Under the pieces are notes generated by a model that saw only the letters and a list, made by a program, of their open reading frames with translations, was not told the origin of the DNA and ran no database searches. This document shows, piece by piece, positions 44,716-59,094 of a DNA stretch of 64,000 nucleotides. A program made the translations under genes and the position numbers. The stretch is from Neopararhizobium haloflavum (GTDB lineage Bacteria > Pseudomonadota > Alphaproteobacteria > Rhizobiales > Rhizobiaceae): NCBI RefSeq assembly GCF_002750855.1, contig NZ_NWUC01000005.1, positions 287,066 through 351,065 on the forward strand, written 5' to 3'. Each line of letters starts with the position of its first letter. Positions within the stretch are counted from its first letter, which is position 1.

Positions 44716-45930
44716 TCAAACGCGGCGGCGCTGCCCGGTGACGGACTGAACGCCGCCGACAAGGCCGCTGCCGCCATAAAGCCATTGCACAGCGTCATAC
44801 CACTCGTCTTGCGATTTGGCGGCCATGACAGTGTTGCGCAAATGGGCATGCGCCCCGGCCGGGTGGTAGATGTGTTCGCCGATCAGGCGGGACTGGAGCT
44901 GCACCTTCGTCGTGCGGTCGATACGGGCCGCCTGATAGCGCGCGATGGCGGTTTCGAAATCGCCCGAGGCTTCATAAAGGGCATCGGCAAGGCAGACCGC
45001 ATCTTCCATCGCCATGCAGGCGCCCTGGGCGAAATATTGCAGCATCGGGTGCGCCGCGTCGCCCAGCAACACGACACGTCCGTCGACCCATCGATCGGTC
45101 GGCGCACGATCGCACAGCACCCAGAGCTTCCAGTCGCGGCCGTGTTCGATGATCTGCCGCGCTCTTGGATGCACGTGTTCGAAACCGCGCTCCACCGCCT
45201 CGCGTGAGACGGGCTGTCCGGCAACCGGCTCCGGCGCGTCGTTGTGATAGGTCACGACCAGGTTGAAGACCTTCCAGCCGGACAGCGGATAATGGACGAT
45301 GTGGCATTTCGGGCCGGCCCAAAGCGTCGCCGCGTTCCAGCGCAGATCCTCCGGCATCTGTTCGACCGGGATGACGGACCGATAGGTCGTGTGGCCGGAA
45401 ACGACCGGTGTGCCGTCTCTAACCAGCTGACCGCGGATGGCCGACCACAGTCCGTCTGCCGCGACGAGACCCGCTCCCTCGACAATCGTCCCGTCCGCAA
45501 GGCGCGCGGCCACGCCGTCCGGCCGGTGTTCGTATCCTTCAACCGCGCTCGATGTGCGCAATTCCACCAGATCGCTGTCGCGGCAGGCCTTGAGGAATAC
45601 GCCGTGCAGGTCCCCCCGATGCACCACCGCATACGGATTGCCAAACCGTTGGCGAAAGCGCTCGGTCAGATCGATATGGGTGATCTCCTCACCCGACAGC
45701 GCATCCATCAGGCGCAGCGCATCGATATAAACGGCCATTTTCCGCGCCGCGTCGCCGACGCCGAGATAGTCGAACGCATGGAAGGCATTGGGGCCGAGCT
45801 GAATGCCTGCCCCGATCTCGCCGAGGCGTGCGGCCTTTTCCAGCACGATCGACCGGAACCCCTTGCGCGCCAGCCCGACGGCGGTGGCCAGACCGCCGAT
45901 GCCGCCGCCGGCGATGACGATGGGCTTCAT
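44716..45930 (-). CDS. FAD-dependent aromatic hydroxylase, probable 3-hydroxybenzoate 6-monooxygenase
   Basis: 404 residues. FAD-binding fold IVIAGGGIGGLATAVGLARK at the N-terminus, NADH/FAD motif VAADGLWSAIRGQL, and GDAAHPMLQYFAQGACMAMEDA at about residue 290. The last stretch with GACMAMEDA is common to salicylate/3-hydroxybenzoate 6-hydroxylases. The ATG at 45930 is chosen; an ATG at 45957 overlapping the preceding stop (ATGA) is an alternative. The neighbouring maleylpyruvate isomerase points to 3-hydroxybenzoate to gentisate rather than salicylate to catechol. Confidence 0.85.
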   Translation of the reverse strand: MKPIVIAGGGIGGLATAVGLARKGFRSIVLEKAARLGEIGAGIQLGPNAFHAFDYLGVGDAARKMAVYIDALRLMDALSGEEITHIDLTERFRQRFGNPYAVVHRGDLHGVFLKACRDSDLVELRTSSAVEGYEHRPDGVAARLADGTIVEGAGLVAADGLWSAIRGQLVRDGTPVVSGHTTYRSVIPVEQMPEDLRWNAATLWAGPKCHIVHYPLSGWKVFNLVVTYHNDAPEPVAGQPVSREAVERGFEHVHPRARQIIEHGRDWKLWVLCDRAPTDRWVDGRVVLLGDAAHPMLQYFAQGACMAMEDAVCLADALYEASGDFETAIARYQAARIDRTTKVQLQSRLIGEHIYHPAGAHAHLRNTVMAAKSQDEWYDAVQWLYGGSGLVGGVQSVTGQRRRV

Positions 45931-45953
45931 CGCCCTAGCCCGCGCCGCCCCGG

Positions 45954-46601
45954 TCATTCCGCGTCCGGCTGGTTTTCCGGCCGCGCCGCCGCAAAGGCTT
46001 CGCTTTCCTCGCACGCGGCGAAGATGCGCATGATGGTCGGATAGACCTCGCTCGGCACTGCGAAGCGGCGATTGTTGATCACCTGGGCATAGAGGTAGAC
46101 GTCGGCCAGGGTCGGCGTGTCGCCGTGACAAAAACGCCCGGTCTCCGCGTCATTGGAAAGGCGTCTTTCCAGCGGCGCGAATGTTTCGCCCACCCAGTGA
46201 CGAAACCATTCGGCCACGGCGTCATCGTCGGCATCAAAGCGCGTCTTGAGCGCATTCAGCACCCGCAGATTGTTCAGCGGATGGATTTCGCATCCGATCA
46301 TAGCCGCCAGCGCGCGCACCCGCGCCCGCCCTTGAATATCGCCGGGAAGCAGCGGCGGCTCGGGATGGGCTTCCTCCAGCCACTCCAGGATCGCCGGCGA
46401 CTGCGTGAGGGTCACGCCCGTGTCCGTTACCAGCGCGGGCACCAGCCCCTGCGGATTGACGTCCAGGTAATCCACCGTCCGGTGCTCACCCTTGCGCAGG
46501 TGATGCGTGACCTGCTCATACGCCAGCCCCTTGTAGTTCAGCGCAACGCGCACGCGCAGCGACGTTGAAGAACGAAAATAACCATGCAGCGTCAGAGCCA
46601 T
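45954..46601 (-). CDS. Maleylpyruvate (or maleylacetoacetate) isomerase, glutathione-S-transferase zeta type
   Basis: 215 residues from the ATG at 46601 with AGGAGG 10 bases upstream. The glutathione site LHGYFRSSTSLRVRVALNYK carries the SS(T/C)xxRVR motif of zeta-class enzymes; NPQGLVPAL and LTQSPAILEWLEE complete the thioredoxin-like domain, and CEIHPLNNLRVL is the zeta C-terminal mark. It would isomerise maleylpyruvate to fumarylpyruvate in the gentisate pathway. It is first in a two-gene unit with the hydroxylase. Confidence 0.87.
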   Translation of the reverse strand: MALTLHGYFRSSTSLRVRVALNYKGLAYEQVTHHLRKGEHRTVDYLDVNPQGLVPALVTDTGVTLTQSPAILEWLEEAHPEPPLLPGDIQGRARVRALAAMIGCEIHPLNNLRVLNALKTRFDADDDAVAEWFRHWVGETFAPLERRLSNDAETGRFCHGDTPTLADVYLYAQVINNRRFAVPSEVYPTIMRIFAACEESEAFAAARPENQPDAE

Positions 46602-46792
46602 GGATGCGGTGCCTCCTACCAGATGTCCTCGCCCTGCCATGTGCCGCATCCGCTCGCAACCGGCAAGGGCCGAGGACGGCACGCGATCGCGCCGTGTCTC
46701 CGGCGTTGCCAATCCGCGCCCGTTGGGCTAGGCGCCTGCCTTGACAGGGCGGCCCGCGCCGCCGAGGACGAAGAAGCGACAGGATAGAGCCC

Positions 46793-47338
46793 ATGAGCAC
46801 CAGAGACATTGTGCATATCGCCCTTTTTGCAGCATTCACAGCGGCGCTCGGCCTGTTTCCGCCCGTGACGCTGCCGCTCACCGGCGTACCGATCACGGCA
46901 CAGTCGATGGGTCCGATGCTGGCGGGTGCGATCATCGGCGCGCGCAAGGGCTTTCTCTCCCAGGCGCTTCTGCTGGTCCTCGTCGCGGCCGGTCTGCCGC
47001 TCCTGGCCGGCGGACGCGGCGGCTTCGGTGTCTTTCTCGGACCGACCGGCGGCTTCCTTCTCGGCTGGGCGATTTCCGCATGGCTGATCGGCTGGCTCTT
47101 CGAACGCAACTGGCGCAATCTGACGGCGTTGAAGGCGACGGCGTACATCTTCATCGGCGGCATTCCCGCCCTCTATCTGATCGGCACCGCCTGGGTCGCG
47201 GTGGTCGTCGACCTGAGCTACATGCAGGCCCTGCTGGCCAACGCGCCGTTTGTCGCCGGCGACCTGGTCAAGGTTGCCATTGCTACGATCGTGGCCATGA
47301 CCGTGCGGCGCGCTTATCCGATGATGGCCAGGGCCTGA
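46793..47338 (+). CDS. bioY: Biotin ECF transporter substrate-binding subunit BioY
   Basis: 181 residues with about six membrane segments. The opening IALFAAFTAALGLFPPVTLP, VPITAQSMGPMLAGAIIGAR and the GGRGGFGVFLGPTGGFLLGW motif are BioY signatures. It is the first gene of bioYMN, with 22 bases before bioM. It captures biotin at the membrane. The 190-base upstream region is very GC-rich, and no BioR-type TTATCTATAA site was seen. Confidence 0.94.
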   Translation: MSTRDIVHIALFAAFTAALGLFPPVTLPLTGVPITAQSMGPMLAGAIIGARKGFLSQALLLVLVAAGLPLLAGGRGGFGVFLGPTGGFLLGWAISAWLIGWLFERNWRNLTALKATAYIFIGGIPALYLIGTAWVAVVVDLSYMQALLANAPFVAGDLVKVAIATIVAMTVRRAYPMMARA

Positions 47339-47360
47339 CGGTCCCTGGAGGGTATCGCGC

Positions 47361-48035
47361 ATGATCCGCCTCGCCGGCGTATCCCATCAGTTCGACGAGC
47401 GGCCGGTTCTTGAGGACCTCGATCTTGCCTTGAGCGAACGCCGCATCGGCGTCGTCGGCGCCAATGGCTCGGGCAAGAGCACTTTTGCCCGCCTCCTCAA
47501 CGGCCTCATCGTCCCGAGTCTGGGCACGGTGACGGTCGATGGGCTCGACACGGCCGATCATGGCAAGGCCGTGCGCCGCAAGGTCGGCTTCATCTTCCAG
47601 AATCCCGACAACCAGATCGTCTATCCGATCGTCAAGGAGGACATCGCGTTCGGGCTGAAGCGCCTGGATCTGCCCAGGGCCGAGAAAGAGGCGCGGATCG
47701 CCTCCGTGCTCACCCGCTTCGGCCTCGATGGTCTGAGCGAGCGCTCGACGCAGACGCTCAGCGGCGGGCAGAAACAGTTGCTCGCCATCGCTGGCGTCAT
47801 GATCATGGAACCGGAGGTGATCGTATTCGACGAACCGACGACACTTCTCGACCTGCGCAACCGGAACCACGTCGCACAGGTGATCGCTGGCCTCGACCAG
47901 CCGGTGATCACCGTTTCGCACGATCTCGATCTGGTCCGCGACTACGATCGGGTCCTCGTCTTCGATGAAGGCCGCATCCTGGCCGATGACGTGCCTGGCC
48001 CTGCGCTCGCCCGTTATGTGGCAGCGATGTCGTGA
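47361..48035 (+). CDS. bioM: Biotin ECF transporter ATPase BioM
   Basis: 224 residues. Walker A GANGSGKST, Q-loop FIFQNPDNQIVYPIVKEDIA (the FQNPxxQI form typical of ECF ATPases), signature LSGGQKQLLAIAGV and Walker B VIVFDEPTTLLDL. The stop overlaps the bioN start by one base (TGATG). It powers biotin uptake with BioN and BioY. Confidence 0.94.
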   Translation: MIRLAGVSHQFDERPVLEDLDLALSERRIGVVGANGSGKSTFARLLNGLIVPSLGTVTVDGLDTADHGKAVRRKVGFIFQNPDNQIVYPIVKEDIAFGLKRLDLPRAEKEARIASVLTRFGLDGLSERSTQTLSGGQKQLLAIAGVMIMEPEVIVFDEPTTLLDLRNRNHVAQVIAGLDQPVITVSHDLDLVRDYDRVLVFDEGRILADDVPGPALARYVAAMS

Positions 48036-48622
48036 TGCTCGGCCTATACCGTCACGGCGAATCGGTGCTCCATCGCCTGCCGGCCGGGTCCAAGCTGCTG
48101 GGCCTTGTCATCGCCGGCACCGCGATTTTCCTCATCGCCAATCCGTTCCACATCGCTGGCATCCTGGTGCTCGTATGCGTGGCCTACCGGATTGCCGGCC
48201 TCGATGCGCGCACGCTCATCGCTCAAATCCGGCCAGCGCTCTGGTTGCTGGCGCTGATCTTCGCGCTTCAGCTATGGCTCAATGACTGGCAGGCCGGCGC
48301 GCTCGTCACTCTCCGGCTCTCCACCCTCATCCTCCTGGCGTCGCTGGTCACGCTGACGACGCAGGTATCGGCCATGCTGGCAGCGATGGAGCGCGGTTTG
48401 GCGCCGCTGCGCCATTTCGGCGTCGACCCGTCAAGGGTGAGCCTCGCGCTGTCGATGGCGCTACGCTTCATTCCGCTGATCGCCGACGTCACTGCCCAGG
48501 TGCGCGAGGCACAGAAGGCGCGCGGCCTCGAGCGTTCGGTCATCGCCGTCGCCGTTCCCGTCATCCTGCGCCTGCTCAAGATGGCCGACGATATCGCCGA
48601 TGCGATCGACGCGCGCTCGTGA
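48035..48622 (+). CDS. bioN: Biotin ECF transporter energy-coupling subunit BioN
   Basis: 195 residues from the ATG at 48035; a GTG at 48032 is possible. Membrane segments around LLGLVIAGTAIFLIANPFHI and LWLLALIFALQLWL, and the T-subunit coupling motif AQKARGLERSV near the end, which contains the conserved ARG that docks on the ATPase. It completes bioYMN. Confidence 0.93.
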   Translation: MLGLYRHGESVLHRLPAGSKLLGLVIAGTAIFLIANPFHIAGILVLVCVAYRIAGLDARTLIAQIRPALWLLALIFALQLWLNDWQAGALVTLRLSTLILLASLVTLTTQVSAMLAAMERGLAPLRHFGVDPSRVSLALSMALRFIPLIADVTAQVREAQKARGLERSVIAVAVPVILRLLKMADDIADAIDARS

Positions 48623-48659: not shown

Positions 48660-49082
48660 TCAGCTGCGCTGGCGAAGGATTTTCCAGATCCCTTGCGCTG
48701 AAGCGACCAGCGTGCCGTCGGCCAGGATCTGCCCTTCCAGAAACACCATGCTGCGTGTCATGCGGATGACGCGCGGTTCGACTTCGACGAACGCGCCGAT
48801 TGGCGCCGCCGCGATGAACTGGGTGTTGAACTGCAGGGTCACACACGGCGTATCGCCTGCCGCCTTCCAGGCCTCCAGTCCAAGCGCCCGGTCGGCAAAG
48901 GTCATCAGCATGCCGCCCTGGACCACATTCAAAAGGTTGGCATGGCGTGGCTCGGCAAGGAATCCGTAGGCCGGGTGTTCGCCGACCATGCGGGTCCAGA
49001 ACGGGCCGACAAGGCCGACGAAGCCGTCATCTGCCTGCATCGTCCAGCCGGCAGTGCGCGGATCGTTCATTGATGTTGTCAT
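48660..49082 (-). CDS. PaaI-family hotdog thioesterase
   Basis: 140 residues. The hotdog core HANLLNVVQGGMLMTFADRA contains the conserved NxxxxxHGG-like arrangement (here NVVQGG) that positions the thioester, followed by VTLQFNTQFIAAAPIGAFVE. Family members hydrolyse acyl-CoA esters. It lies just downstream of the IclR regulator on the same strand (48-base gap), so it is probably part of the CoA-ester catabolic block, clearing dead-end acyl-CoAs. Confidence 0.87.
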   Translation of the reverse strand: MTTSMNDPRTAGWTMQADDGFVGLVGPFWTRMVGEHPAYGFLAEPRHANLLNVVQGGMLMTFADRALGLEAWKAAGDTPCVTLQFNTQFIAAAPIGAFVEVEPRVIRMTRSMVFLEGQILADGTLVASAQGIWKILRQRS

Positions 49083-49130: not shown

Positions 49131-49886
49131 TCACGATCGCCCACGCATCTTGCCCGAGGCGAAGGATTGAAGAGTGCTGGCGATGATCGCGGCAAGTTCG
49201 GCGTGTCTTGGCTCCATGCGATGGCGCGGGCCGGCGATGCAGATTCCGAACTCGTCGTTGCCGATCTTGACCGGCATGGCGATCGCCACGACGTCGGCGA
49301 CGTTTTCGCCCAGCGTCATCTGATAGCCGCGCGCGATGCCCTCATCGAGATCCGCGACGAGCCGACCGCGATCGGATATCGTGTTGTCGGTCATCTGGCG
49401 CAAAGGCAGCTTTTCGATCAGCGCGAGACGGTCTGCCCGATCCAGTGCGCCGAGAACAACCTTGCCGATCGCGCTGGAATGCATCGGCTTGAGCTCTCCC
49501 ACCTGCGCGGTGTAGCGCACGGTGTGCAATCCTTCTACGACCTTGAGATAGACGATCTCGTTGCTCTGGCGTCGACCGAGAATGATGGTCTCGCCCGTCG
49601 CGTCGCGCAGCGTTTCCATCACCGGCACGAGTTGCATGAGATGGGGTTCGTGCTCGGCGATCGCCAGCGAGCGCTCCAGCATGCGCCGCGTCGGGTAGAG
49701 CGCCTTGCGCTCGCCGACCTCGTAGAGAAACCCACGGCTTTTCAGCGTCTTCACGATGGAAAAGCAACTGGACGGCGCGACGCCGATTGCCTTGGACAGC
49801 TCGGAAAGACTGAGCGGGCGGCGCTCGCGTGCGAAAACCTCGAAAAGGTCCAATGTGCGTCCTGTGCTTCTGGACATCGCTTCCAA
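49131..49886 (-). CDS. IclR-family transcriptional regulator
   Basis: 251 residues. An N-terminal winged helix (SLSELSKAIGVAPSSCFSIV then LKSRGFLYEVGERKALYPT) is followed from about residue 80 by the IclR effector domain with ETIILGRRQSNEIVYLKVVE and HSSAIGKVVLGAL. It is divergent from the crotonase/mutase operon, and the shared 244-base gap has several palindromes. It is likely to be its regulator, sensing the substrate or CoA-linked metabolite. Confidence 0.92.
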   Translation of the reverse strand: MEAMSRSTGRTLDLFEVFARERRPLSLSELSKAIGVAPSSCFSIVKTLKSRGFLYEVGERKALYPTRRMLERSLAIAEHEPHLMQLVPVMETLRDATGETIILGRRQSNEIVYLKVVEGLHTVRYTAQVGELKPMHSSAIGKVVLGALDRADRLALIEKLPLRQMTDNTISDRGRLVADLDEGIARGYQMTLGENVADVVAIAMPVKIGNDEFGICIAGPRHRMEPRHAELAAIIASTLQSFASGKMRGRS

Positions 49887-50130
49887 TCCTGCAGCTCGCC
49901 GCCCGATCGCGCGACCTGTGCCAACGATTCTATTTTAGAAAATAGTTTTTTCCATTTCGAATGCCCACCCCCGACCTTCGCGCCGCCTCCCCGATTTGAT
50001 CAGCGGATCGTCCATCCTGGCTGCGCACCACACGCGATGCAGCCGCTATTCCATATCCCCCGCGCTTGACACAATATATTCGAAATGCCAAACACTCTTT
50101 CCGTATTTCGAATGTGGAGGAGCGTTCGGC
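49887..50130. promoter_or_regulatory. Divergent control region of the IclR gene and the mutase operon
   Basis: It contains a perfect palindrome CTATTTT-AG-AAAATAG (49930-49945), near the regulator start, and three TTCGAA-centred elements: CATTTCGAATG (49953-49963), TATTCGAAATG (50077-50087) and TATTTCGAATG (50104-50114). TTGACA at 50066-50071 could be a -35 box with a weak -10 17 bases on. The last two elements overlap that promoter, a layout suited to repression or activation by IclR. Confidence 0.6.
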
Positions 50131-50907
50131 ATGGATAGACCCGGATTGCAGGTAACGCGCGCAGATGGCGTGCTGCGGGTCCATATCGATCGCGCGGAAA
50201 AGCGGAATGCGCTCAGCCGGTCCCTTCTCGCCGCGATCGGCGAAGCGTTCCGCGAAAGCGCGGCGGATAATTCGTTGAAACTTGCGCTGCTCACCAGCGC
50301 CGGCGACCGAAGCTTTGCCGCCGGCGGCGACCTTCGCGATCTCGCCGAAGTCCAGGGCGACCTGGCCGCCGAAGAGATGGCCCGCGATGCCAAGCATGCG
50401 CTTCAGGCCATCCGCGATTTTCCCGTGCCGGTGGTCGCCGGCCTCAACGGCGATGCGCTCGGCGGAGGGGCCGAACTTGCCGTCGCCTGCGACATGCGCG
50501 TCGCAGCCGCCCATGCGCGGATCGGCTTCATTCAAGGCAGACTTGCGATCGCCAGCGCCTGGGGCGGCGGAGTGGATCTGATGCGCCTCGTCGGTCCGTC
50601 GCGGGCGCTCCGCCTGCTCGCCCGTTCGGAGATGCTGGACGCCGAACAGGCCATCACCATGGGTCTCATCGATGCAGCGGCTGGCGAAAGCGAGACGTTG
50701 GACGAGGCGATGGACCGCTTCATCTCTCCGATGCTCTCCCAGGCCCCGCAGGTTATGCGCGCCTTCAAGGCGCTCGCCATCGAAGCGAAAAACGCGGGCC
50801 GCGACACCATGGATGGCATCGAAACGGCCCGCTTCGGCGAGGTCTGGGCCCACCCGGACCACGACGCGGCCGTCGACGCAATCCTCAACAAGGCGAAAAG
50901 AGCATGA
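50131..50907 (+). CDS. Crotonase-family protein, probable acyl-CoA decarboxylase-like enzyme
   Basis: 258 residues from the ATG at 50131 with GGAGGAG 9 bases upstream. Oxyanion-hole segments are SFAAGGDLRDL and LNGDALGGGAELAVACDMR. The first catalytic Glu of hydratases is Glu115, but the position of the second (rat Glu164) is Gln135 in IGFIQGRLAIASAWGGG. That pattern resembles methylmalonyl/ethylmalonyl-CoA decarboxylases more than hydratases, by comparison from memory. It overlaps the mutase gene by four bases, supporting a decarboxylation step beside the mutase. Confidence 0.85.
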   Translation: MDRPGLQVTRADGVLRVHIDRAEKRNALSRSLLAAIGEAFRESAADNSLKLALLTSAGDRSFAAGGDLRDLAEVQGDLAAEEMARDAKHALQAIRDFPVPVVAGLNGDALGGGAELAVACDMRVAAAHARIGFIQGRLAIASAWGGGVDLMRLVGPSRALRLLARSEMLDAEQAITMGLIDAAAGESETLDEAMDRFISPMLSQAPQVMRAFKALAIEAKNAGRDTMDGIETARFGEVWAHPDHDAAVDAILNKAKRA

Positions 50908-52529
50908 GCGTCCCCGCTGCCAAGAAAACCGAGCAAGCCGCGACGCAGTTCGATGCGCTCGGCACGACGCCTTCCGGCATCGAGGTCCCCATCACGGTGA
51001 CGCCTGAGATGACCGTGTCCGACGGCAGCGGCCCGGGCGAGTTCCCCTACACACGCGGCATCTTTCCAAACGGCTACCGCGGCCGCCTCTGGACGATCCG
51101 GCAATATTCCGGCTTCGGCACGGCCGAGGCAACCAATGAGCGTTACCGCTTTCTGCTCGATCGCGGCCAGACTGGGCTCTCGGTCGCGCTCGATCTGCCA
51201 ACCCAGTGCGGCTACGATCCGACCGACCCGATCGCCAGATCGGAGATCGGCAAGGTTGGCGTCTCCCTATCCAATCTGGCCGAAGCCGAAATCCTGTTCG
51301 ACTCGATCGATCTGTCGAAGATTTCCACCTCCTTCACCATCAATGGAACGGCGGCGATCGTCTATGCACTCTATCTGGCTGCGGCCGACAAGAAGGGCGT
51401 CGCGCGCGAGAAGCTGACTGGCACGATCCAGAACGACATCCTCAAGGAGTATGTGGCGCGCGGCACCTGGATCTTCCCCGTTCGCCCGTCCATGCGACTG
51501 ATCGCCGACAGCGTGCTCTATGCCAACGAGCAGACGCCGCGCTTCAATCCGATATCGATCGCCGGCGCCCATGTACGCGACGCGGGCTCCACCGCCGTCG
51601 AGGAAATGGGCTACACACTCGCCAACGGCCTGGCTTATGTCGAGGAATTCATGCGCCGCGGCGGCGACGTCAACGCCTTCGCCAAGCGTCTCAGCTTCTT
51701 CTTCTACGTCCATATGGATCTTTTCGAGGAAGTTGCGAAGTTCCGTGCCGGTCGGCGCATATGGGCCAAACTCCTGTCCGAACGTTTCGGCGTAACGGAC
51801 GAGAAAGCCTTGCATTTCCGCTTCGGGGTCGTGTGCGGCGGCTCCTCCCTGACGGCGGCGCAACCCTATAACAACATCGTGCGGGTCGGCATCGAGACGG
51901 TTGCCGCCGTGATGGGTGGCGCACAGTCGATCTTCACCTGCGCCTTCGACGAGGCCTTTCAGATCCCGACCGAGACGAGTGCCGAAATCGCGCTGAGGAC
52001 GCAGCAGATCGTCGCCCATGAAAGCGGCGTCGCGCGCACCGTCGATCCGCTCGGCGGCAGCTACTACGCCGAGTGGCTGACCGACCGGATGGAAGAGGAA
52101 ATCCTCAAGGTCATGCGCGGCATCGACGACTATGGCGGCGTCGTGAAATCCATCGAGGACGGCTATCTCCAGGCGCAGATCGCCGAGCGCGCCCGCGAGC
52201 GCAAACAGGCGGTCGACGACGGCCTGCGCAAGGTCGTGGGTGTCAATCTCGGCGAACGCGCAACGCGCGACCAGGATAGCGGCGAAGTCTTCCGGCTCGA
52301 TCCCGAAGGCGTGCGTCAGGTGCTGGAGAAGTATCAGAAGGTCCGCGACAGCCGCGACGATGCGGCCGTCGAACGCTCGCTTGCCCGCCTTGGGGAGGCA
52401 GCAGCCAAGGATGACGAGAACGTCATGCCCTACCTCGTCGAGTGCTGCCACGCCTACGCCACCGTTGGCGAGATGGTTGCTGCGCTCAAGAAGGAATGGG
52501 GCGAGTTCCGCGAACCCATCAGGTTTTGA
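50904..52529 (+). CDS. B12-dependent acyl-CoA mutase, large subunit (methylmalonyl-CoA mutase family)
   Basis: 541 residues: a TIM-barrel mutase domain without the B12-binding domain, which is encoded next. Key residues, by alignment from memory with Propionibacterium enzyme: Tyr68 in TIRQYSGF (Tyr89) and Arg186 in YVARGTWIFP (Arg207), both associated with carboxylated acyl-CoA substrates; His223 in GAHVRDAG (His244), but the usual Tyr243 is Ala222. So it is not a 2-hydroxyisobutyryl- or isobutyryl-type enzyme; methylmalonyl, ethylmalonyl or a larger relative is likely. It overlaps the crotonase gene. Confidence 0.9.
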   Translation: MSVPAAKKTEQAATQFDALGTTPSGIEVPITVTPEMTVSDGSGPGEFPYTRGIFPNGYRGRLWTIRQYSGFGTAEATNERYRFLLDRGQTGLSVALDLPTQCGYDPTDPIARSEIGKVGVSLSNLAEAEILFDSIDLSKISTSFTINGTAAIVYALYLAAADKKGVAREKLTGTIQNDILKEYVARGTWIFPVRPSMRLIADSVLYANEQTPRFNPISIAGAHVRDAGSTAVEEMGYTLANGLAYVEEFMRRGGDVNAFAKRLSFFFYVHMDLFEEVAKFRAGRRIWAKLLSERFGVTDEKALHFRFGVVCGGSSLTAAQPYNNIVRVGIETVAAVMGGAQSIFTCAFDEAFQIPTETSAEIALRTQQIVAHESGVARTVDPLGGSYYAEWLTDRMEEEILKVMRGIDDYGGVVKSIEDGYLQAQIAERARERKQAVDDGLRKVVGVNLGERATRDQDSGEVFRLDPEGVRQVLEKYQKVRDSRDDAAVERSLARLGEAAAKDDENVMPYLVECCHAYATVGEMVAALKKEWGEFREPIRF

Positions 52530-52534
52530 TAGCC

Positions 52535-52936
52535 ATGAGTCTTGCCAGAAAACGAATTCTCATCGCAAAACCCGGCCTCGACGGCCACGACGTCGGTGCG
52601 AAGGTGATCGCGCTGGCGCTCCGCGATGCGGGGGCCGACGTCATCTACACGGGGCTTCGCCGCACGCCTGACTACATCGTGCGCATCGCCGTCGAAGAGG
52701 ACGTCGACATGCTTGGCCTGTCGATTCTCTCCGGCAGTCACAAGGAACTCGTCGAGGATGTCATCGCCAAGCTGCGTGAGGCCGATGCCGGCGACATCAA
52801 GGTGTTCGTCGGCGGCACGATCCCCGTGGAGGATCACGAAGCGCTCCTCAAGGCGGGCGTGTGCGGCGTCTTCACCAGCGAAATGAAGATCGACAGCGTG
52901 ATAGGCGCGATCGACAGAGAACTGGCGGAGGGCTGA
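52535..52936 (+). CDS. B12-binding small subunit of the acyl-CoA mutase
   Basis: 133 residues from the ATG at 52535, 5 bases after the large-subunit stop. The cobalamin motif DGHDVG (His18 would be the lower cobalt ligand), LSILSGSHKELV and FVGGTIPVED match the DxHxxG...SxL...GG pattern. Separate small subunits are known in isobutyryl-CoA, 2-hydroxyisobutyryl-CoA and archaeal methylmalonyl-CoA mutases. Cytoplasmic. Confidence 0.95.
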   Translation: MSLARKRILIAKPGLDGHDVGAKVIALALRDAGADVIYTGLRRTPDYIVRIAVEEDVDMLGLSILSGSHKELVEDVIAKLREADAGDIKVFVGGTIPVEDHEALLKAGVCGVFTSEMKIDSVIGAIDRELAEG

Positions 52937-52937
52937 G

Positions 52938-54077
52938 TTGCCGGGTCCGCTCGCGGGAAAGCGCATCATCGAGGTCGGTCACATGCTGGCCGGACCGTAT
53001 TGCGGCATGCTGCTTGCCGATCTCGGCGCCGACGTCATCAAGGTCGAAGGCCCGGACGGCGACATTGGTCGCCACATCAGCCCGCATGCGATCGGGCCGC
53101 ACAATGCCTATTTCGCCAGCCTGAACCGCAGCAAGAAGAGCGTCGTTCTTGATCTGGCGACCGAGGCGGGCCGCAACGATCTGCACCGCCTTGCGCAATC
53201 CGCCGATGGTCTTTTCACCAACCTGCGGCCCTCGGCAATCAAGAAGCTCGGCCTGACCTACGAGGCCTTGCGCGCTGTCAATCCGCGCCTCGCCTGTCTC
53301 GCGCTCACCGGCTATGGGCTGGACGGACCGTTTTCGGATTCGCCGGCCTATGATTATGTCATCCAGGCCATGACCGGGGTCATGATGATGACCGGCGATC
53401 CGGACGGCCCTCCCGTGAAACCGGGTTTTTCGGCCGTCGACAATTCGGCCGGCATCATGGGCGCCCTTGCGCTCGTCTCCAAGCTCGTGGAGGGCAAGGG
53501 CGGCCAGCTCGACGTGTCCATGCACGACACGATGCTCTCCCAGCTCAACTATCTGGCATCGAGCTACCTCAACGCCGGCGCCGTCACCTCACGGGTCCGT
53601 GGCGGTGGCCATCCCTATATCGTGCCGGCACAGCTGTTCCCCACCCGCGACGGCTACGTTGTCCTGTTCATCACGCATGACAAGTTCTGGCGCATCTTCG
53701 CCGAGGCGCTGGACGAGAGCGAATGGCTGAGCGATCCCCGCTTTGCAACGATGAAGGGGCGCTCGGCCAACCGTGATCTGGTGATCGATTCCATCGCCGC
53801 ACGGCTGACCGAGCGCGACGCAGCCGACTGGGTGTTGAGGCTGGCTCCACTCGGCCTTGTGATTGCCGCCGTGGAGAATCTGCCTGACGCGCTCGACGGT
53901 CCGCTGACCAAATCGCGCGACATGGTGGTGGAGATTCCGACAATGGGCGACAGCCTTCGCCTTATCGCGAGTCCGATCCGGATCGAAGGCAATACCGTCG
54001 ACTATCGTCCGCCGCCGCTTCTCGGTGAGCACTCCACCCAATTCCTCGATGACGCGAAGGCAAAGGCGGTGCCATGA
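52938..54077 (+). CDS. Class III CoA-transferase (CaiB/BaiF family)
   Basis: 379 residues from a TTG at 52938 with GGAGGG 5 bases upstream. The opening LAGKRIIEVGHMLAGPYCGM, NRSKKSVVLDL and the catalytic Asp168 in PGFSAVDNSAG are family III landmarks. It moves CoA between carboxylic acids, here presumably from a product CoA ester to the imported substrate. It starts 1 base after the small mutase subunit and overlaps the GTPase gene by four bases. Confidence 0.92.
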   Translation: MPGPLAGKRIIEVGHMLAGPYCGMLLADLGADVIKVEGPDGDIGRHISPHAIGPHNAYFASLNRSKKSVVLDLATEAGRNDLHRLAQSADGLFTNLRPSAIKKLGLTYEALRAVNPRLACLALTGYGLDGPFSDSPAYDYVIQAMTGVMMMTGDPDGPPVKPGFSAVDNSAGIMGALALVSKLVEGKGGQLDVSMHDTMLSQLNYLASSYLNAGAVTSRVRGGGHPYIVPAQLFPTRDGYVVLFITHDKFWRIFAEALDESEWLSDPRFATMKGRSANRDLVIDSIAARLTERDAADWVLRLAPLGLVIAAVENLPDALDGPLTKSRDMVVEIPTMGDSLRLIASPIRIEGNTVDYRPPPLLGEHSTQFLDDAKAKAVP

Positions 54078-54943
54078 CCGACCCGTTTCCGCGCCGCGCC
54101 ATCGCAAGGGAGTTGAGCCGCGTCGTCAACGCGCCGGTCGGCGACGTGCTCGCGGAAATTGGCGATGCGAGCACGGCGTCTGCCCGCCGCATCGGGATCA
54201 CCGGCCCGCCGGGCGGTGGCAAGAGCACGCTGATCAGCGCCCTGGCGGCACACCGGCTGGAAAAGAACCGGGACAGGACTGTCGCGGTGCTGGCCATCGA
54301 TCCGACAAGCCCGTTGAGCGGCGGCTCGATCCTTGGCGACCGCATCCGTATGGATGCCATCGCCGACCTGCCCCGGCTGTTCATCCGTTCCGTGCCAAGC
54401 CGCGGCGCCAGAAATGGCCTTTGCGACAACGTCGTCGATCTCATGACGACTCTCGAGCGCCATCGTTTCGAGGAAATCCTCTTGGAGACCGTCGGCATCG
54501 GTCAGGCGGAGATCGATGTCAGAGAACTCGTCGATACGGTGGTCCTGGTGGTGCCGCCCGATGCTGGCGACTCCGTGCAGGCCATGAAGGCCGGCATCAT
54601 CGAGATCGCGGATATCTTCGTCGTGACGAAATCCGAAAACCCCGCCGCACGGCAAATGGCCGCCGAAATTCGCGGCATTGTCGGCGCGCGCAAGAGCGCC
54701 TCGCCGCCTGCGGTGGTGATGACCGCCGCGAATGGCAGCGGCATTGCCGAACTCAGCGACGCGATCGATGCACACCACCATGCGCGTGATAACGGCGATA
54801 CCGCCGAAAGACGCCGGCACTACCATTTGAAGGCCCTCATCGGCCGCGAGATCGACGCTGTCCTGTCAGGGAACGGCGAGATGGCAAGGGGTGATTTGAG
54901 GTCATCCTACAACAGGCTGCTACAGCATCTGAGGAGGTACTGA
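54074..54943 (+). CDS. MeaB/ArgK-type P-loop GTPase, mutase chaperone
   Basis: 289 residues. P-loop TGPPGGGKST (43-52), IDPTSPLSGGSILGDRIRMD and LLETVGIGQAEIDV are MeaB/ArgK signatures; these proteins protect and reload the B12 mutase. The guanine-specificity motif, normally NKxD, reads TKSE (185-188), so nucleotide preference may have changed. The order next to the mutase genes confirms the role. The C-terminal helices are shorter than in E. coli ArgK (331 residues). Confidence 0.9.
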   Translation: MTDPFPRRAIARELSRVVNAPVGDVLAEIGDASTASARRIGITGPPGGGKSTLISALAAHRLEKNRDRTVAVLAIDPTSPLSGGSILGDRIRMDAIADLPRLFIRSVPSRGARNGLCDNVVDLMTTLERHRFEEILLETVGIGQAEIDVRELVDTVVLVVPPDAGDSVQAMKAGIIEIADIFVVTKSENPAARQMAAEIRGIVGARKSASPPAVVMTAANGSGIAELSDAIDAHHHARDNGDTAERRRHYHLKALIGREIDAVLSGNGEMARGDLRSSYNRLLQHLRRY

Positions 54944-54970
54944 GCAGCCGGCAACGGGAGGAGAAAAACC

Positions 54971-55945
54971 GTGAAGCGCAACACAACACTTCTTTTGGCA
55001 TGCGGCCTTGTCGCAGCCTTGGCTGCACCGGCAACCGCCCAGCAGCGTCTGACGATGGGCGGAACCCACAGCAGCTCTTCGTTCTATGCCTATCAGGTCG
55101 GCATATCGAACTACCTGTCGAACACGATCGACGACATCTCGATCAACATCAGCGAACTTGGCGGCGCCGAGGTCTCGACCGAAGCGCTTCTGCGCGACGA
55201 GATCGACATGGGCATTGCCGTTACATCGAGCGATTTCGCCGCCGTCGAGGGCGAGGCCCCTTTCAGCGCGCCGGCGGACACTCTGCGCACGCTCTTCTTC
55301 TTTGCGCCGCTGCCTCTCAATTTCGTCGTCGCTGCAGACAGCGAGGTCGAGAGCATCGCCGATCTCGCCGGCGTCTCCTTCAATCCCGGCGGCAGGGGAA
55401 CATCGACGGAAGCGCAGGTCGAAAACATCTTCGCCAGCATCGAGATCGAACCGGAGCTTATGATCGCCGAGGGCAACGATGCACTGGAAGCCTATCAGAA
55501 CCGCAACATCCAGGGCTTCGTGAAGGGCGGCCTGCACCCTGACGGTTACATCCAGCAGGCACATTCCTCGCGCCCGATCCGGATTCTTTCCTTCGATGCC
55601 GATCAGGTCTCCGCCGTGACCGAAGCCTTCCCCTATTTCAGCGGCACGACAACGGATGCCGGCGACAATTACGGTGACGCGGCAAGCGGCAGCTATGAGA
55701 CGATCCAGACCGCGATCGGCATCAACACGACGACCAACCTCGACGAGGAAACGGCCTACCAGATCGCCAAGGCGGTGTTCTCGGAAGAAGGCAAGCAGGC
55801 GGCAACCGATGTCTATCCGCCGGCCGCCCAGGTGGATGCCGTCGAACTGACGCTGTCGGCTGCCGTCGCCCCGCTCCATGCCGGCGTTGTCCGGTATCTG
55901 GAGGAGATCGGTGCGGACATTCCCGACCGCTTGATCGCCGAATAA
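54971..55945 (+). CDS. TAXI-family TRAP transporter solute-binding protein
   Basis: 324 residues with a signal peptide ending ATAQ (residue 24). The mature start QRLTMGGTHSSSSFYAYQVG and the later GRGTSTEAQVENIFASIEIE are TAXI binding-protein marks. GGGAGGAG lies 8 bases before the GTG/ATG region at 54971. It is followed after 27 bases by the fused TRAP permease, so it is the receptor for that importer. TAXI systems carry dicarboxylates and related organic acids. Confidence 0.9.
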   Translation: MKRNTTLLLACGLVAALAAPATAQQRLTMGGTHSSSSFYAYQVGISNYLSNTIDDISINISELGGAEVSTEALLRDEIDMGIAVTSSDFAAVEGEAPFSAPADTLRTLFFFAPLPLNFVVAADSEVESIADLAGVSFNPGGRGTSTEAQVENIFASIEIEPELMIAEGNDALEAYQNRNIQGFVKGGLHPDGYIQQAHSSRPIRILSFDADQVSAVTEAFPYFSGTTTDAGDNYGDAASGSYETIQTAIGINTTTNLDEETAYQIAKAVFSEEGKQAATDVYPPAAQVDAVELTLSAAVAPLHAGVVRYLEEIGADIPDRLIAE

Positions 55946-55972
55946 CGGCGCCGACACGCAAGGAGCTGTCTG

Positions 55973-57913
55973 ATGAGCGATCCCGAGGTTGAGACTGCCC
56001 CGCAAAAGGACGCGATCGGCCGCCTGCTGGTCCCGCTCGCGATCCTGTGGGCGCTTTATCATCTCTTCGGCGCAGGCCTCGGCTATGCCGGGGCCCATGA
56101 TCTGCGAGCCGTCCATATCGCCGGCGCGATCACGCTCATCGTGGCATGGCGGCCGCTCCCCGCCCCCTTTCGCATCATCGACCTTGCCCTGATCGCCGTC
56201 ACGGTGACGGCGATCAGCTACCTTATCGCCAATGCGGACGAAATCGTCGGCGCCAACTGGTTCACCAACGAACCGCTGCAGCGTGCATTGGGACTTGCGC
56301 TCTTCATCTGTCTCATGGAGGCGATCCGCCGCGCGCTCGGCTGGGTGTTCGTCGGTCTCATTTCCATCTTCCTGGCCTATGCTGTTCTCGGGCCATACAT
56401 CCCCGGCATGCTCGGCCATCGCGGTCTCGGCTTCGACCGCCTCATCTACAGTTTCTATCTCGGCAACCAGGGTGTCTTCGGCTCGCTGATCGGCATTTCG
56501 GCCGGCGTCGTGGCGCTGTTCCTGATTTTCGGCGAAATCCTGAATGCCGGCGGCGCCGGCCGCACATTCATCAACATCGCCATACGGATCGGCGGCCGCC
56601 TGAAGGGCGGCGCCGGCATGGTCGCCGTCATCGGCAGTGCCTTCATGGGCATGGTCAATGGCAGCGCGGTCGCCAACGTCACGAGCACCGGGGTCCTGAC
56701 CATTCCCTTGATGCGTCGGCTCGGCTTCTCGCGCAATCTGGCCGGCGCCATCGAGGCCGTCGCCTCGACCGGCGGCCAGTTCATGCCGCCCATCATGGGT
56801 CCCGGCGCGTTCCTCCTCGCCGAACTTCTCGGCATATCCTATCTCGAGGTGGCAACCGCGGCCCTCATCCCCTCGGCGCTCTTCTATCTCGGCCTCCTTT
56901 TCGCCGTCTGGCTCTTTGCGGGCAAACGCGGCCTTCAGCCCGTGCCGGAAGACATGATCCCGAGCCGCGCAGAAACCTACGCGCCTGCCGCCATGGTTGC
57001 GCTCTTCGTACCGATCGGCCTGCTCATCGGTTTCATCCTTGCAAGATACACGGTCCAGTACGCGGTCTTCTGGGCGATCGTCGCCGCCATCGGGCTCTTC
57101 GCGCTGCAGACACTCGCGGTGCGGCTCGTCGGTCAGAAAACGGCAAAGGGCGAAACGCACGCCGCACCCATCCGGTTCGGTCCTGCCATCTATGACGCCT
57201 TCGCGCGCGCGGCCGATACCATCGCCTACATCGCGATGATCGTCACCGCGGCACAGCTGATCGTGGCGATCATCAATCTCAGCGGTCTCGGCGTGACCCT
57301 GTCGCAGATCATCGTATCGCTTGGCCAGGACAGCGCGATCCTTTCACTGATCCTCACGATGATCGTCGCCATACTGCTCGGGATGGGCATGCCGACACCC
57401 GCCGCCTATGCCATCGCCGCTGCCGTTCTCGGCCCGCCGCTGGGCCAACTCGGCTATCAGCAACTGCCGTCCCACCTCTTCATCTACTACTTCGCCTGCC
57501 TCGCCGCGATCACGCCGCCGGTCGCCTCCGCGGTCTTCGCGGCAACCGCGATCAGCCGCGGCAAGGTCTTCCCGACCGCCGGCTATGCCGTGATGCTCTC
57601 GCTCAGCCTGTTCATCATCCCCTTCCTGTTCATCGACAATCCCGTATTGCTGATGGACGGCGACATATCCGAGGTCATGCTGGTGAGCGTGACGGCGGCC
57701 ATCGGCGTTGCGACATTGTCGCTGGCGACGATCGGCCACTTCCAGCATGCGATCCAGCCGGCACTGCGCCTGGCGCTGGGGGCCGCGGCCCTTGCCATGA
57801 TCGTTCCGGGCATTCTATCGGACGTCATCGGGCTGGTGTTGATGGCAGGATCGTTGTTCCTTCATCTGAAGAGGCCGCAGCAGCGCATGGTGATGCGATC
57901 GAAGGACATCTGA
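55973..57913 (+). CDS. TRAP transporter fused permease (4TM plus 12TM)
   Basis: 646 residues with about 16-18 membrane segments. The fused TAXI-type permease signature is visible in GGRLKGGAGMVAVIGSAFMG, MVNGSAVANVTSTGVLTIPL and AVASTGGQFMPPIMGPGAFL, and again in ILLGMGMPTPAAYAIAAAVL. It uses a sodium or proton gradient to import the ligand delivered by the upstream TAXI protein. Its stop overlaps the putative CTG start of the MFS gene. Confidence 0.93.
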   Translation: MSDPEVETAPQKDAIGRLLVPLAILWALYHLFGAGLGYAGAHDLRAVHIAGAITLIVAWRPLPAPFRIIDLALIAVTVTAISYLIANADEIVGANWFTNEPLQRALGLALFICLMEAIRRALGWVFVGLISIFLAYAVLGPYIPGMLGHRGLGFDRLIYSFYLGNQGVFGSLIGISAGVVALFLIFGEILNAGGAGRTFINIAIRIGGRLKGGAGMVAVIGSAFMGMVNGSAVANVTSTGVLTIPLMRRLGFSRNLAGAIEAVASTGGQFMPPIMGPGAFLLAELLGISYLEVATAALIPSALFYLGLLFAVWLFAGKRGLQPVPEDMIPSRAETYAPAAMVALFVPIGLLIGFILARYTVQYAVFWAIVAAIGLFALQTLAVRLVGQKTAKGETHAAPIRFGPAIYDAFARAADTIAYIAMIVTAAQLIVAIINLSGLGVTLSQIIVSLGQDSAILSLILTMIVAILLGMGMPTPAAYAIAAAVLGPPLGQLGYQQLPSHLFIYYFACLAAITPPVASAVFAATAISRGKVFPTAGYAVMLSLSLFIIPFLFIDNPVLLMDGDISEVMLVSVTAAIGVATLSLATIGHFQHAIQPALRLALGAAALAMIVPGILSDVIGLVLMAGSLFLHLKRPQQRMVMRSKDI

Positions 57914-59094
57914 CATCCGGCCCGCCGCCGCTGGGGCGCACGCTCGCCGCAGCGCTCGCCATTCAGGCCTTCGCAAGCGTATCGGTCTTCGCCCTGCCGA
58001 CGATCGCGCCCATCGCGGCTCTTGAACTTGGCGTTCCGCCGGGGCTGGTCGGGATCCAGACAAGCCTCGTCTACCTGACTGCCACGGCAATGTCGGTCTT
58101 CGCCGGCACGGTATTGCGGCGCAATGGCCCGGTCCGCACCTCGCAGCTGGCACTCGCCGCCGTGGCGCTCGGCCTATTCACCCTCGCCGCGGGCGGCCTG
58201 CCCGCATTCTTCTTCGCCGCCGCCCTTATCGGCTGCGGCTACGCCCTGACAAACCCGGCAGGCGCCGAGATGCTGGCGCGCAGCACGACGGCGCAAAGGC
58301 GCAATCTCGTCTTCTCCATCAAGCAGACCGCCGTGCCGCTGGGCGGCATTCTCGCCGGGCTCGCGCTGCCGCTCTTGTCCGCCGTCTTCGGCTGGCAGGC
58401 CGCCTTCGTCCTGACCGCCGGGGCCATCACGCTGATCGCGATCGCGCTTCAACCGCTGCGCCGCGTGTGGGACCAGCGCATGGCGGAGCGCGCCGCCGCA
58501 CCTTCCCCGCCGCTTGCAGCGCTGCGCCAGGTCCTCAAAAGCCGGCCGCTCCGCAGCCTTGCGGCAACCGGCTTTCTCTATTCCACCATCCAGCTGGCAC
58601 TGGCGTCCTATGGCGTCGTCATGCTGGTATCCGAATTTGGCTGGAGCCTCGTGGCGGCTGGCTCGGGCGCTGCGGCGCTCCAGTTCGGCGGGGTGATCGG
58701 CCGCGTCCTTTGGGGCGCGATCGCCGACCGGGTCTCGGGCGGTTTCGGCGTGCTCGCCATCATCGGCATCGCCACAACGGCCATCACCTGGCTGTTGCCG
58801 ACGGCGATCGGCGCGCCCCCCGCATTCGTCATCGCCGTGCTCTTCGCCCTCGGTGTGACGGCCGTCGGGTGGAACGGCGTGCTGCTCGCCGACACGACGC
58901 GCCATGTCGATGCCGTCGACGCGGGCGGCGTGACCGCGATCGTGCTGATGTTCACCTTTTCCGGCGTCGTCCTCGGCCCACTGACCCTCGCAGCGTTCGC
59001 CTGGCTCACCGGCTCCTACGCAATGGCCTTCGCGATACTCGCAACAGCCCCACTGGCCGCCGCCCTGTTGCTCTTGCTGAACCGATCCACATGA
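57910..59094 (+). CDS. MFS transporter with a probable CTG start
   Basis: About 394 residues if begun at CTG 57910, giving the twelve membrane segments expected of MFS proteins (first LAAALAIQAFASVSVFALPT). The frame has no ATG, GTG or TTG nearby upstream; the first ATG is 58090 and would delete the first membrane segment. The CTG overlaps the permease stop (CTGA) and has GAAGGA 3 bases before it. The family fold is MFS general (RNLVFSIKQTAVPLGGILAG, which resembles the cyanate/organic-acid type). It may export or import a pathway acid. Confidence 0.82.
   Translation: MTSGPPPLGRTLAAALAIQAFASVSVFALPTIAPIAALELGVPPGLVGIQTSLVYLTATAMSVFAGTVLRRNGPVRTSQLALAAVALGLFTLAAGGLPAFFFAAALIGCGYALTNPAGAEMLARSTTAQRRNLVFSIKQTAVPLGGILAGLALPLLSAVFGWQAAFVLTAGAITLIAIALQPLRRVWDQRMAERAAAPSPPLAALRQVLKSRPLRSLAATGFLYSTIQLALASYGVVMLVSEFGWSLVAAGSGAAALQFGGVIGRVLWGAIADRVSGGFGVLAIIGIATTAITWLLPTAIGAPPAFVIAVLFALGVTAVGWNGVLLADTTRHVDAVDAGGVTAIVLMFTFSGVVLGPLTLAAFAWLTGSYAMAFAILATAPLAAALLLLLNRST

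Follow-up and report, generated by a model that had tools for sequence, protein, structure and literature searches.

What does the seven-gene operon at positions 50131-57913 of this 64,000-nucleotide stretch of Neopararhizobium haloflavum DNA (hereafter the window) allow its host to degrade? Open reading frames, translations and family scans place the seven genes on the plus strand in an uninterrupted series, with two 4-nucleotide overlaps and gaps of 1-27 nucleotides at the joins (Table 1), and the GC-content of the operon is 0.636 versus 0.627 for the remaining window. The genes encode a crotonase-fold protein, the two subunits of an adenosylcobalamin (AdoCbl)-dependent acyl-CoA mutase, a class III CoA-transferase, a MeaB-type GTPase and a TAXI-type TRAP importer. 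The first-pass annotation of this DNA had listed this content and order, together with a divergent IclR gene and a thioesterase gene behind it, all of which we confirmed at the same positions; it missed an MFS transporter gene after the TRAP permease. It had further proposed that a dicarboxylate is imported, converted to its CoA ester, rearranged and decarboxylated. Our analysis supports this as a class of chemistry, based on the CoA-transferase profiles, a conserved arginine of the mutase (Arg207) and the residues of the crotonase, but not for the exact acid. On balance, our results suggest that the operon serves the breakdown of a 2-substituted succinate, and that its mutase belongs to a distinct clade which, judged by sequence, falls in no characterised class.

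Conservation and distribution of the cassette

We compared the operon across 89 related loci: 80 loci that were the best among 541 confirmed relatives in a genome-collection scan with an ortholog alignment, five of the seven plasmid records above 60% identity, and four loci from whole genomes. By construction this set favours close relatives and many of its loci are short; L066 and L136 (L108 in the residue count) are probably one record, and L013 and L014 are close relatives. The B12-binding subunit is present in all 89 loci, and the crotonase gene adjoins the mutase gene in 84 of the 87 loci with room for it (3 without, 2 cut off). A class III CoA-transferase gene follows in 69 of 88 loci (19 without, 1 cut off) and MeaB is present in 72 of 82 (10 without, 7 cut off). 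Since 19 loci do without the CoA-transferase, the core of the cassette is the mutase plus the crotonase. For importers, IclR and accessory genes a hit at any place in the locus DNA was counted, and for TAXI a hit within 9 kb. An IclR homologue was found in 56 of the 89 loci and an adenosyltransferase gene in seven; the importers comprised TAXI (12 loci), TctC-like (13), DctP-like (8), ABC-type binding proteins (6) and MFS proteins (12). The importer varies across loci while the enzymes are mostly constant. The TAXI-TRAP system to which the first-pass annotation had tied the operon is present here, with TIGR02122 and TIGR02123 both over their cut-offs, but it is not obligatory elsewhere.

The tandem gene order recurs in alpha-, beta- and gammaproteobacteria, which indicates that the gene set is more than a chance assembly. 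The first-pass annotation had made its reading depend on the neighbourhood being conserved in relatives, and across the 89 loci it is. Annotated neighbourhoods of Sulfitobacter dubius, Marinobacter sp. M3C, Diaphorobacter sp. HDW4B and Paraburkholderia share the five core genes, the MeaB-type GTPase being unannotated in two. The importer after MeaB in annotated relatives is a TAXI-TRAP, a TctC-type protein or a DctP-type TRAP, and the mutases, where annotated, bear names such as 'methylmalonyl-CoA mutase family protein'.

Mutases of at least 74% identity were found in four of 297 genomes of the order (next best 46%) and in four of 398 genomes of the phylum (about 1%; next best 47%), the host's own genome being counted in both cases. 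At an E-value of 1e-150, no such mutase was found in three other genomes of the genus or in 21 other genomes of the same family. The plasmid search returned 428 records with a mutase match, one at 80-90% identity, six at 60-80% and 421 below 60%. The nearest mutases among the matches listed are those of Sulfitobacter dubius (82.6%), Vannielia (82%), Hoeflea (81%) and Pontibrevibacter (80%). In these four nearest relatives the gene order is the same up to and including the TAXI-TRAP genes; their iclR, however, lies upstream on the same strand. This patchy distribution suggests horizontal spread.

Two further observations concern individual loci. Bradyrhizobium manausense SZCCT0118 carries two copies of the cassette (L043 and L058) about 31 kb apart on one contig. 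Their surroundings differ; L058 is accompanied by an additional CoA-transferase and an additional crotonase-like open reading frame, and Ich/Ccl-like genes are found near it. L042 and L055 are titled as a metagenome-assembled genome (MAG) of Klebsiella pneumoniae, but their surroundings match the gammaproteobacterial MAGs L030 and L040, and the name looks wrong.

A mutase clade with two invariant substitutions

The PF01642 match, the DxHxxG motif, His244 and Gln197 place the operon enzyme among the AdoCbl-dependent acyl-CoA mutases; its structural model has a mean predicted local distance difference test score (pLDDT) of 81.6. The mutases of the related loci form a discrete clade with about 70-83% identity inside, and the best outsider among the matches listed reaches 51%. 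When aligned to the methylmalonyl-CoA mutase (MCM) of P. shermanii, the window protein retains Tyr89, Gln197, Arg207 and His244 at the positions of Tyr68, Gln176, Arg186 and His223, in an MCM numbering that we fitted from the alignment and the established literature. Each of these four residues is kept in 89/89 clade members. In contrast, Tyr243 is replaced by alanine (Ala222) and Gln330 by valine (Val310), again in 89/89 members. Ten of the eleven positions counted are invariant in the clade, and the eleventh is Cys in 75 members and Ala in 14. Every other protein of the comparison set keeps Tyr243 and Gln330, except a divergent Sphingobium mutase. Among 28 further non-clade mutases, the first position is Tyr in all 28 and the second is Gln in 27, the last (the iaa-like L008) having Gly.

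These patterns separate the clade from several known classes. It differs from MCM proper by the Ala/Val pair in 89/89 members and by its position outside the MCM clade of six rows. Ethylmalonyl-CoA mutase (Ecm/MeaA) shares Tyr89 and Arg207, but the identity is 36%, the two are separate in the tree (with a long branch for the only Ecm row), and the clade has lost Tyr243 and Gln330, both of which are kept by the Ecm of L100, a 661-residue chain near a ccr-like open reading frame (named by sequence look). Finally, the clade differs from isobutyryl- and 2-hydroxyisobutyryl-CoA mutases by Tyr/Arg at positions 89 and 207 in 89/89 members, whereas IcmF has Phe/Gln and HcmA Ile/Gln. The Tyr89/Arg207 pair would bind the free carboxylate, and a carboxylated substrate is thus supported. 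The genome of the window contains only two kinds of PF01642 genes, a two-subunit MCM pair (contig C20) and the operon mutase, and an ethylmalonyl-CoA pathway in the host was rejected on that basis. The operon MeaB is the only MeaB found in this genome (E 1e-15), though the MCM pair is also present.

We then placed the clade in two trees, each with seven clade members and with genuine IaaG sequences outside both. The window clade was sister to the iaa-like mutase L008/L135 of genome G020 with support 86/95 in the first (25 rows), and the same relationship received 83/91 in the second (24 rows, with a second iaa-like mutase added and IcmF and the Sphingobium mutase left out), both values being below the mark that the tree program sets for support. 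Residues shared uniquely with the clade number two for the iaa-like pair, two for the single Ecm row, and zero or one for the six other groups.

The search also brought up other mutases. In the Sinorhizobium sp. C101 plasmid (L101:1994-10366), a different operon encodes a mutase with Val/Gln at positions 89/207 that groups with HcmA. Alongside it are genes for a crotonase and a MeaB of its own, an aminotransferase, an AMP-binding protein and an MFS protein. The very divergent mutase of the Sphingobium sp. TomTYG65 plasmid (L103) has Gln at the catalytic His and Val at Arg207, and adjoins a second mutase-annotated gene and a GTPase. Genome G255 harbors a window-type mutase, an iaa-like mutase (L138) and a third at 43%. 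The iaa-like operon L135 (G020) and L138, whose mutase is 66-67% identical to that of L135, both occur in the window's taxonomic order.

The predicted pathway and its alternatives

In the pathway that we propose, the TAXI-TRAP system, perhaps with the MFS protein, would import the dicarboxylate, and the class III CoA-transferase would activate it, with succinyl-CoA or the product acyl-CoA as the CoA donor. The split mutase, kept active by MeaB, would then convert HOOC-CH2-CH(R)-CO-SCoA into HOOC-CH(CH2R)-CO-SCoA, a shift that brings the CO-S-CoA group alongside the free carboxylate. The crotonase-fold enzyme would decarboxylate this malonyl-CoA derivative to R-CH2-CH2-CO-SCoA and CO2, and the acyl-CoA would enter beta-oxidation. 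We infer these reactions, their direction and the nature of R from the conserved cassette, the retained Tyr89/Arg207, the dicarboxylate-like CoA-transferase, the crotonase pattern and the carboxylate-type importers, all of which support a substituted succinate. The alanine and valine at two conserved positions and the possible iaa-type kinship point to a bulkier substituent, and R is probably larger than methyl.

The CoA-transferase is a class III member by its PF02515 match and by Asp168, the candidate catalytic residue, which aligns with an aspartate of 10uh; its best NCBIfam profiles, all below their cut-offs, are succinate-glutarate, oxalate and mesaconate CoA-transferases. Chain 8s4j, which we take to be VcGluP from the fit of its numbering, has Tyr45, Gln93 and Glu125 where the TAXI receptor has Phe38, Val84 and Leu114. 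These three residues are determinants of glutamate binding in VcGluP (PMC11574862), and glutamate was rejected as the TAXI ligand because they are replaced.

The crotonase presents an unusual residue pattern. Across 84 sequences, the window's included, the first glutamate of the hydratases (Glu115) and Trp239 are kept in 84/84, whereas the second hydratase glutamate (position 135) is Gln in 77, His in seven and Glu in none. At these three positions the solved hydratase/isomerase 7eum carries Glu, Glu and Phe, and E. coli ScpB carries Glu, Pro and Tyr. ECHDC1, in the version of its sequence used here, has Glu, His and Trp. The protein thus departs from the hydratase glutamate pair, a feature that is not specific to decarboxylases; the absence of the second glutamate argues against hydration and allows decarboxylation. 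The predicted loss of hydration is better supported than the gain of decarboxylation. ECHDC1 is an animal enzyme, reported to be an ethyl- and methylmalonyl-CoA decarboxylase, and it shares with the window protein the first Glu, the Trp, and in seven of the 84 sequences the His that stands at the second Glu position (Gln in the window); its identity to the window crotonase (25%, with that version) is below that of 7eum (29%), and ScpB reaches 21.5%.

The closest precedent is the iaa operon (IaaL, IaaGH, IaaF), with which Aromatoleum aromaticum degrades indoleacetate. There, a class III CoA-transferase is followed by the split B12 mutase IaaGH, a phenylsuccinyl-CoA mutase that converts arylsuccinyl-CoA to benzylmalonyl-CoA, and then by CO2 loss, and a GGG motif in place of YEG marks IaaF (PMC8360864). 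This precedent and the tree position beside iaa-like mutases count in favour of a substituted succinate. We compared the system through L135 and L138. In L135 the mutase is accompanied by a GGG-motif acyl-CoA dehydrogenase, a CoA-transferase 29% identical to the window's, and hydantoinase-like and xanthine-dehydrogenase-like (Mo-hydroxylase-like) genes, the latter two named by sequence look. The window operon differs in several respects: it contains no hydantoinase, Mo hydroxylase or GGG-motif IaaF and therefore lacks the iaa context; CO2 would be lost through a crotonase rather than a decarboxylating dehydrogenase; it has MeaB, for which L135 has no match; and its clade has Ala where iaa-like mutases keep Tyr243.

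Several points weigh against a substituted succinate. The CoA-transferase is missing from 19 of 88 loci, where the CoA ester must arise otherwise. The overall sequence and fold of the crotonase are nearest to ordinary hydratases. The placement of Tyr243 and Gln330 in the substrate pocket is presumptive, and a literature search on the MCM residues found nothing. The iaa-type kinship is no more than a lead, as its tree support is 86/95 and 83/91 and the uniquely shared residues do not outnumber those of Ecm (two versus two). Finally, the catabolic genes around the cassette differ between the related loci and do not converge on one acid, and no common substrate emerged from a Pfam survey of 57 of 129 proteins covering nine of the 19 loci without CoA-transferase, with ten examined singly.

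These neighbouring genes suggest that the dicarboxylate can arise intracellularly from different precursors. In eleven alphaproteobacterial-type loci, many of them marine by title, the cassette stands next to genes for thiamine diphosphate (ThDP) enzymes, reductases or oxygenases. In six loci, most of them betaproteobacterial, an IPNS-like oxygenase occurs together with a binding protein of the ABC type. Sulfopyruvate/phosphonopyruvate-decarboxylase-like ThDP genes with a tartronate-semialdehyde-reductase-like gene occur in 10 of 89 loci (L027, L031, L033, L044, L046, L048, L063, L067, L069 and L076), with scores below the cut-off; given these scores, and with no extra cationic residue among the positions compared, a sulfonate substrate, though conceivable, was dropped. 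The IPNS-like oxygenase is found in 15 of 89 loci and its nearest solved relative is an ethylene/succinate-forming enzyme (E 2e-45). The match to a DAO chain is far weaker (E 4e-13), and an auxin substrate was set aside.

The smallest R would be that of methylsuccinate (or ethylmalonate), with methylsuccinyl-CoA rearranged to ethylmalonyl-CoA and decarboxylated to butyryl-CoA. The first-pass annotation had named methylsuccinate; as a special case whose probability lies inside that of the general reading, it appears possible but rather unlikely. The regiochemistry would be that of ethylmalonyl-CoA mutase, which acts on methylsuccinyl/ethylmalonyl-CoA; the clade and the ccr-linked Ecm share Gly308 and Val309; the crotonase pattern is ECHDC1-like; and itaconate-type Ich- and Ccl-like genes are found close to L058, albeit beyond an apparent transposase. 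However, Ala222 and Val310 replace the Tyr and Gln that Ecm keeps, and Ich- plus Ccl-like genes occur in one of 89 loci, L058 itself. Moreover, pseudomonads use methylsuccinate through a CoA-transferase, dehydrogenase, hydratase and lyase, a B12-free route without a mutase (PMC12290011, PMC9875883), and methylsuccinate is for this reason not favoured. The pseudomonad cluster (Ict, Mcd, Ich, Ccl, Msi) resembles the window operon in that a CoA-transferase starts the use of a branched C5 dicarboxylate and in the TRAP importer that accompanies it, according to PMC12599236. In contrast, its chemistry is that of a dehydrogenase, a hydratase and a lyase, and the word 'mutase' is absent from the main text of PMC12290011 and PMC9875883.

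A bolder and doubtful extension of the substituted-succinate reading is that the clade represents a new mutase class for succinyl-CoAs beyond the reach of beta-oxidation, carried by a portable proteobacterial module with exchangeable importers. An example would be 2,2-dimethylsuccinyl-CoA, from gem-dimethyl terpenoids, which would yield isopropylmalonyl-CoA and then, through decarboxylation by the crotonase, isovaleryl-CoA. Such a mutase would be the dicarboxylic counterpart of pivalyl-CoA mutase.

It is also conceivable, if improbable, that the crotonase-mutase core disposes of or interconverts internal alkylmalonyl-CoA side products, and that the importer and the CoA-transferase were added later. 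ECHDC1 is reported to clear such products in animals, and the 19 loci without CoA-transferase would fit, three of them (L070, L083 and L093) lying near an aconitase-like open reading frame named by sequence look. Against this, the CoA-transferase is kept in 69 of 88 loci and an IclR gene is nearby in 56 of 89.

We likewise give little credence to the crotonase being a hydratase, isomerase or thioesterase, with the mutase running from a malonyl-CoA to a succinyl-CoA derivative. The nearest solved sequences and folds are indeed hydratases and isomerases: the 50 Foldseek matches shown for the AlphaFold model of the crotonase (mean pLDDT 93.9) are general crotonase-family proteins, mostly of these two kinds, and do not separate a decarboxylase from a hydratase. 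Such mutases are also known to be reversible. Nevertheless, the second hydratase glutamate is missing in 84/84 sequences, and no gene of the cassette would supply a malonyl-CoA derivative.

A cycle like that of E. coli, from succinyl-CoA through methylmalonyl-CoA to propionyl-CoA with CoA recycled to succinate, is very improbable: two mutase residues differ from every MCM examined, including that of the same genome, crotonase position 135 differs from ScpB, the CoA-transferase has no meaningful similarity to ScpC (best match 44 residues, E 9.5), and these divergent pocket residues together with a separate canonical MCM in the genome make succinate, also within the range of acids first suggested, an unlikely substrate. 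The parallel that the first-pass annotation drew with sbm-argK-ygfG-ygfH (scpA-argK-scpB-scpC; argK is also ygfD) survives in its logic, with the same four functions together and a homologous mutase (43% identity) and GTPase (37%), but the crotonase is only distantly related. Furthermore, the E. coli mutase is a single chain whereas the window's is split, and the scp stretch shown has neither importer nor IclR gene, both of which the window operon has.

Literature searches on this gene set and on related chemistry found no description of the operon among the papers listed, within a coverage that left out most subscription journals. Few B12-dependent acyl-CoA mutases have known substrates, and every such class has led to a pathway. 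From a clade in which two residues have changed invariantly, encoded beside a probable decarboxylase, one would predict that branched dicarboxylates are used aerobically by a second logic besides the dehydrogenase route. Mutases whose pocket is wider would also be of use in synthetic carbon pathways.

Regulation and flanking genes

The IclR protein would control the unit, perhaps through three ATTTCGAAT/ATTCGAAAT boxes at 49954, 50078 and 50105, the only exact copies in the 64-kb window. All of them lie between iclR and the crotonase gene (49954..50114), and those at 50078 and 50105 form a perfect 9-nucleotide inverted repeat; they are perhaps the operator. The ATTTCGAAT box was not found in the seven relatives that were checked; their IclR proteins share 39-47% identity with that of the window. 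Promoter- and terminator-like sites were no commoner than in shuffled sequence.

Table 1. Coordinates of the operon genes and of the genes that flank them in the window
Feature	Position	Strand	Support and remarks
Hotdog (4HBT) thioesterase	48660..49082	-	PF03061; behind iclR
IclR-family regulator	49131..49886	-	PF01614 and PF09339; divergent from the operon
Crotonase-fold protein, predicted substituted-malonyl-CoA decarboxylase	50131..50907	+	PF00378
AdoCbl acyl-CoA mutase, large subunit	50904..52529	+	PF01642, 636 bits, 512/512 positions
B12-binding small subunit	52535..52936	+	PF02310, 84 bits; TIGR00640, 139.5 bits; motif DGHDVG
Class III CoA-transferase, TTG start	52938..54077	+	PF02515, 354.5 bits; candidate catalytic Asp168
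MeaB-type chaperone GTPase	54074..54943	+	PF03308
TAXI-type TRAP substrate-binding protein, GTG start	54971..55945	+	TIGR02122, 132.5 bits (cut-off 84.35)
Fused TRAP permease	55973..57913	+	TIGR02123, 513 bits (cut-off 320.65)
MFS transporter, possible eighth gene	57910..59094	+	PF07690, 115 bits from about 57958

The start of the MFS gene is uncertain because its homology begins at about 57958, in the same open frame, before the first standard start codon at 58090; a CTG at 57910 is possible. The thioesterase had no match over threshold across the 89 related loci and is therefore probably a bystander outside the system. Further away, positions 46793-48622 likely encode a biotin energy-coupling-factor transporter, in which BioY-like and BioN-like proteins (recognised by sequence look, with no NCBIfam match for either) flank an energy-coupling-factor-type ATPase that scores below its cut-off. 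On the minus strand at 44716-46616, a 3-hydroxybenzoate 6-monooxygenase gene and a maleylacetoacetate-isomerase-family gene, both over cut-off, probably belong to a gentisate-type pathway.

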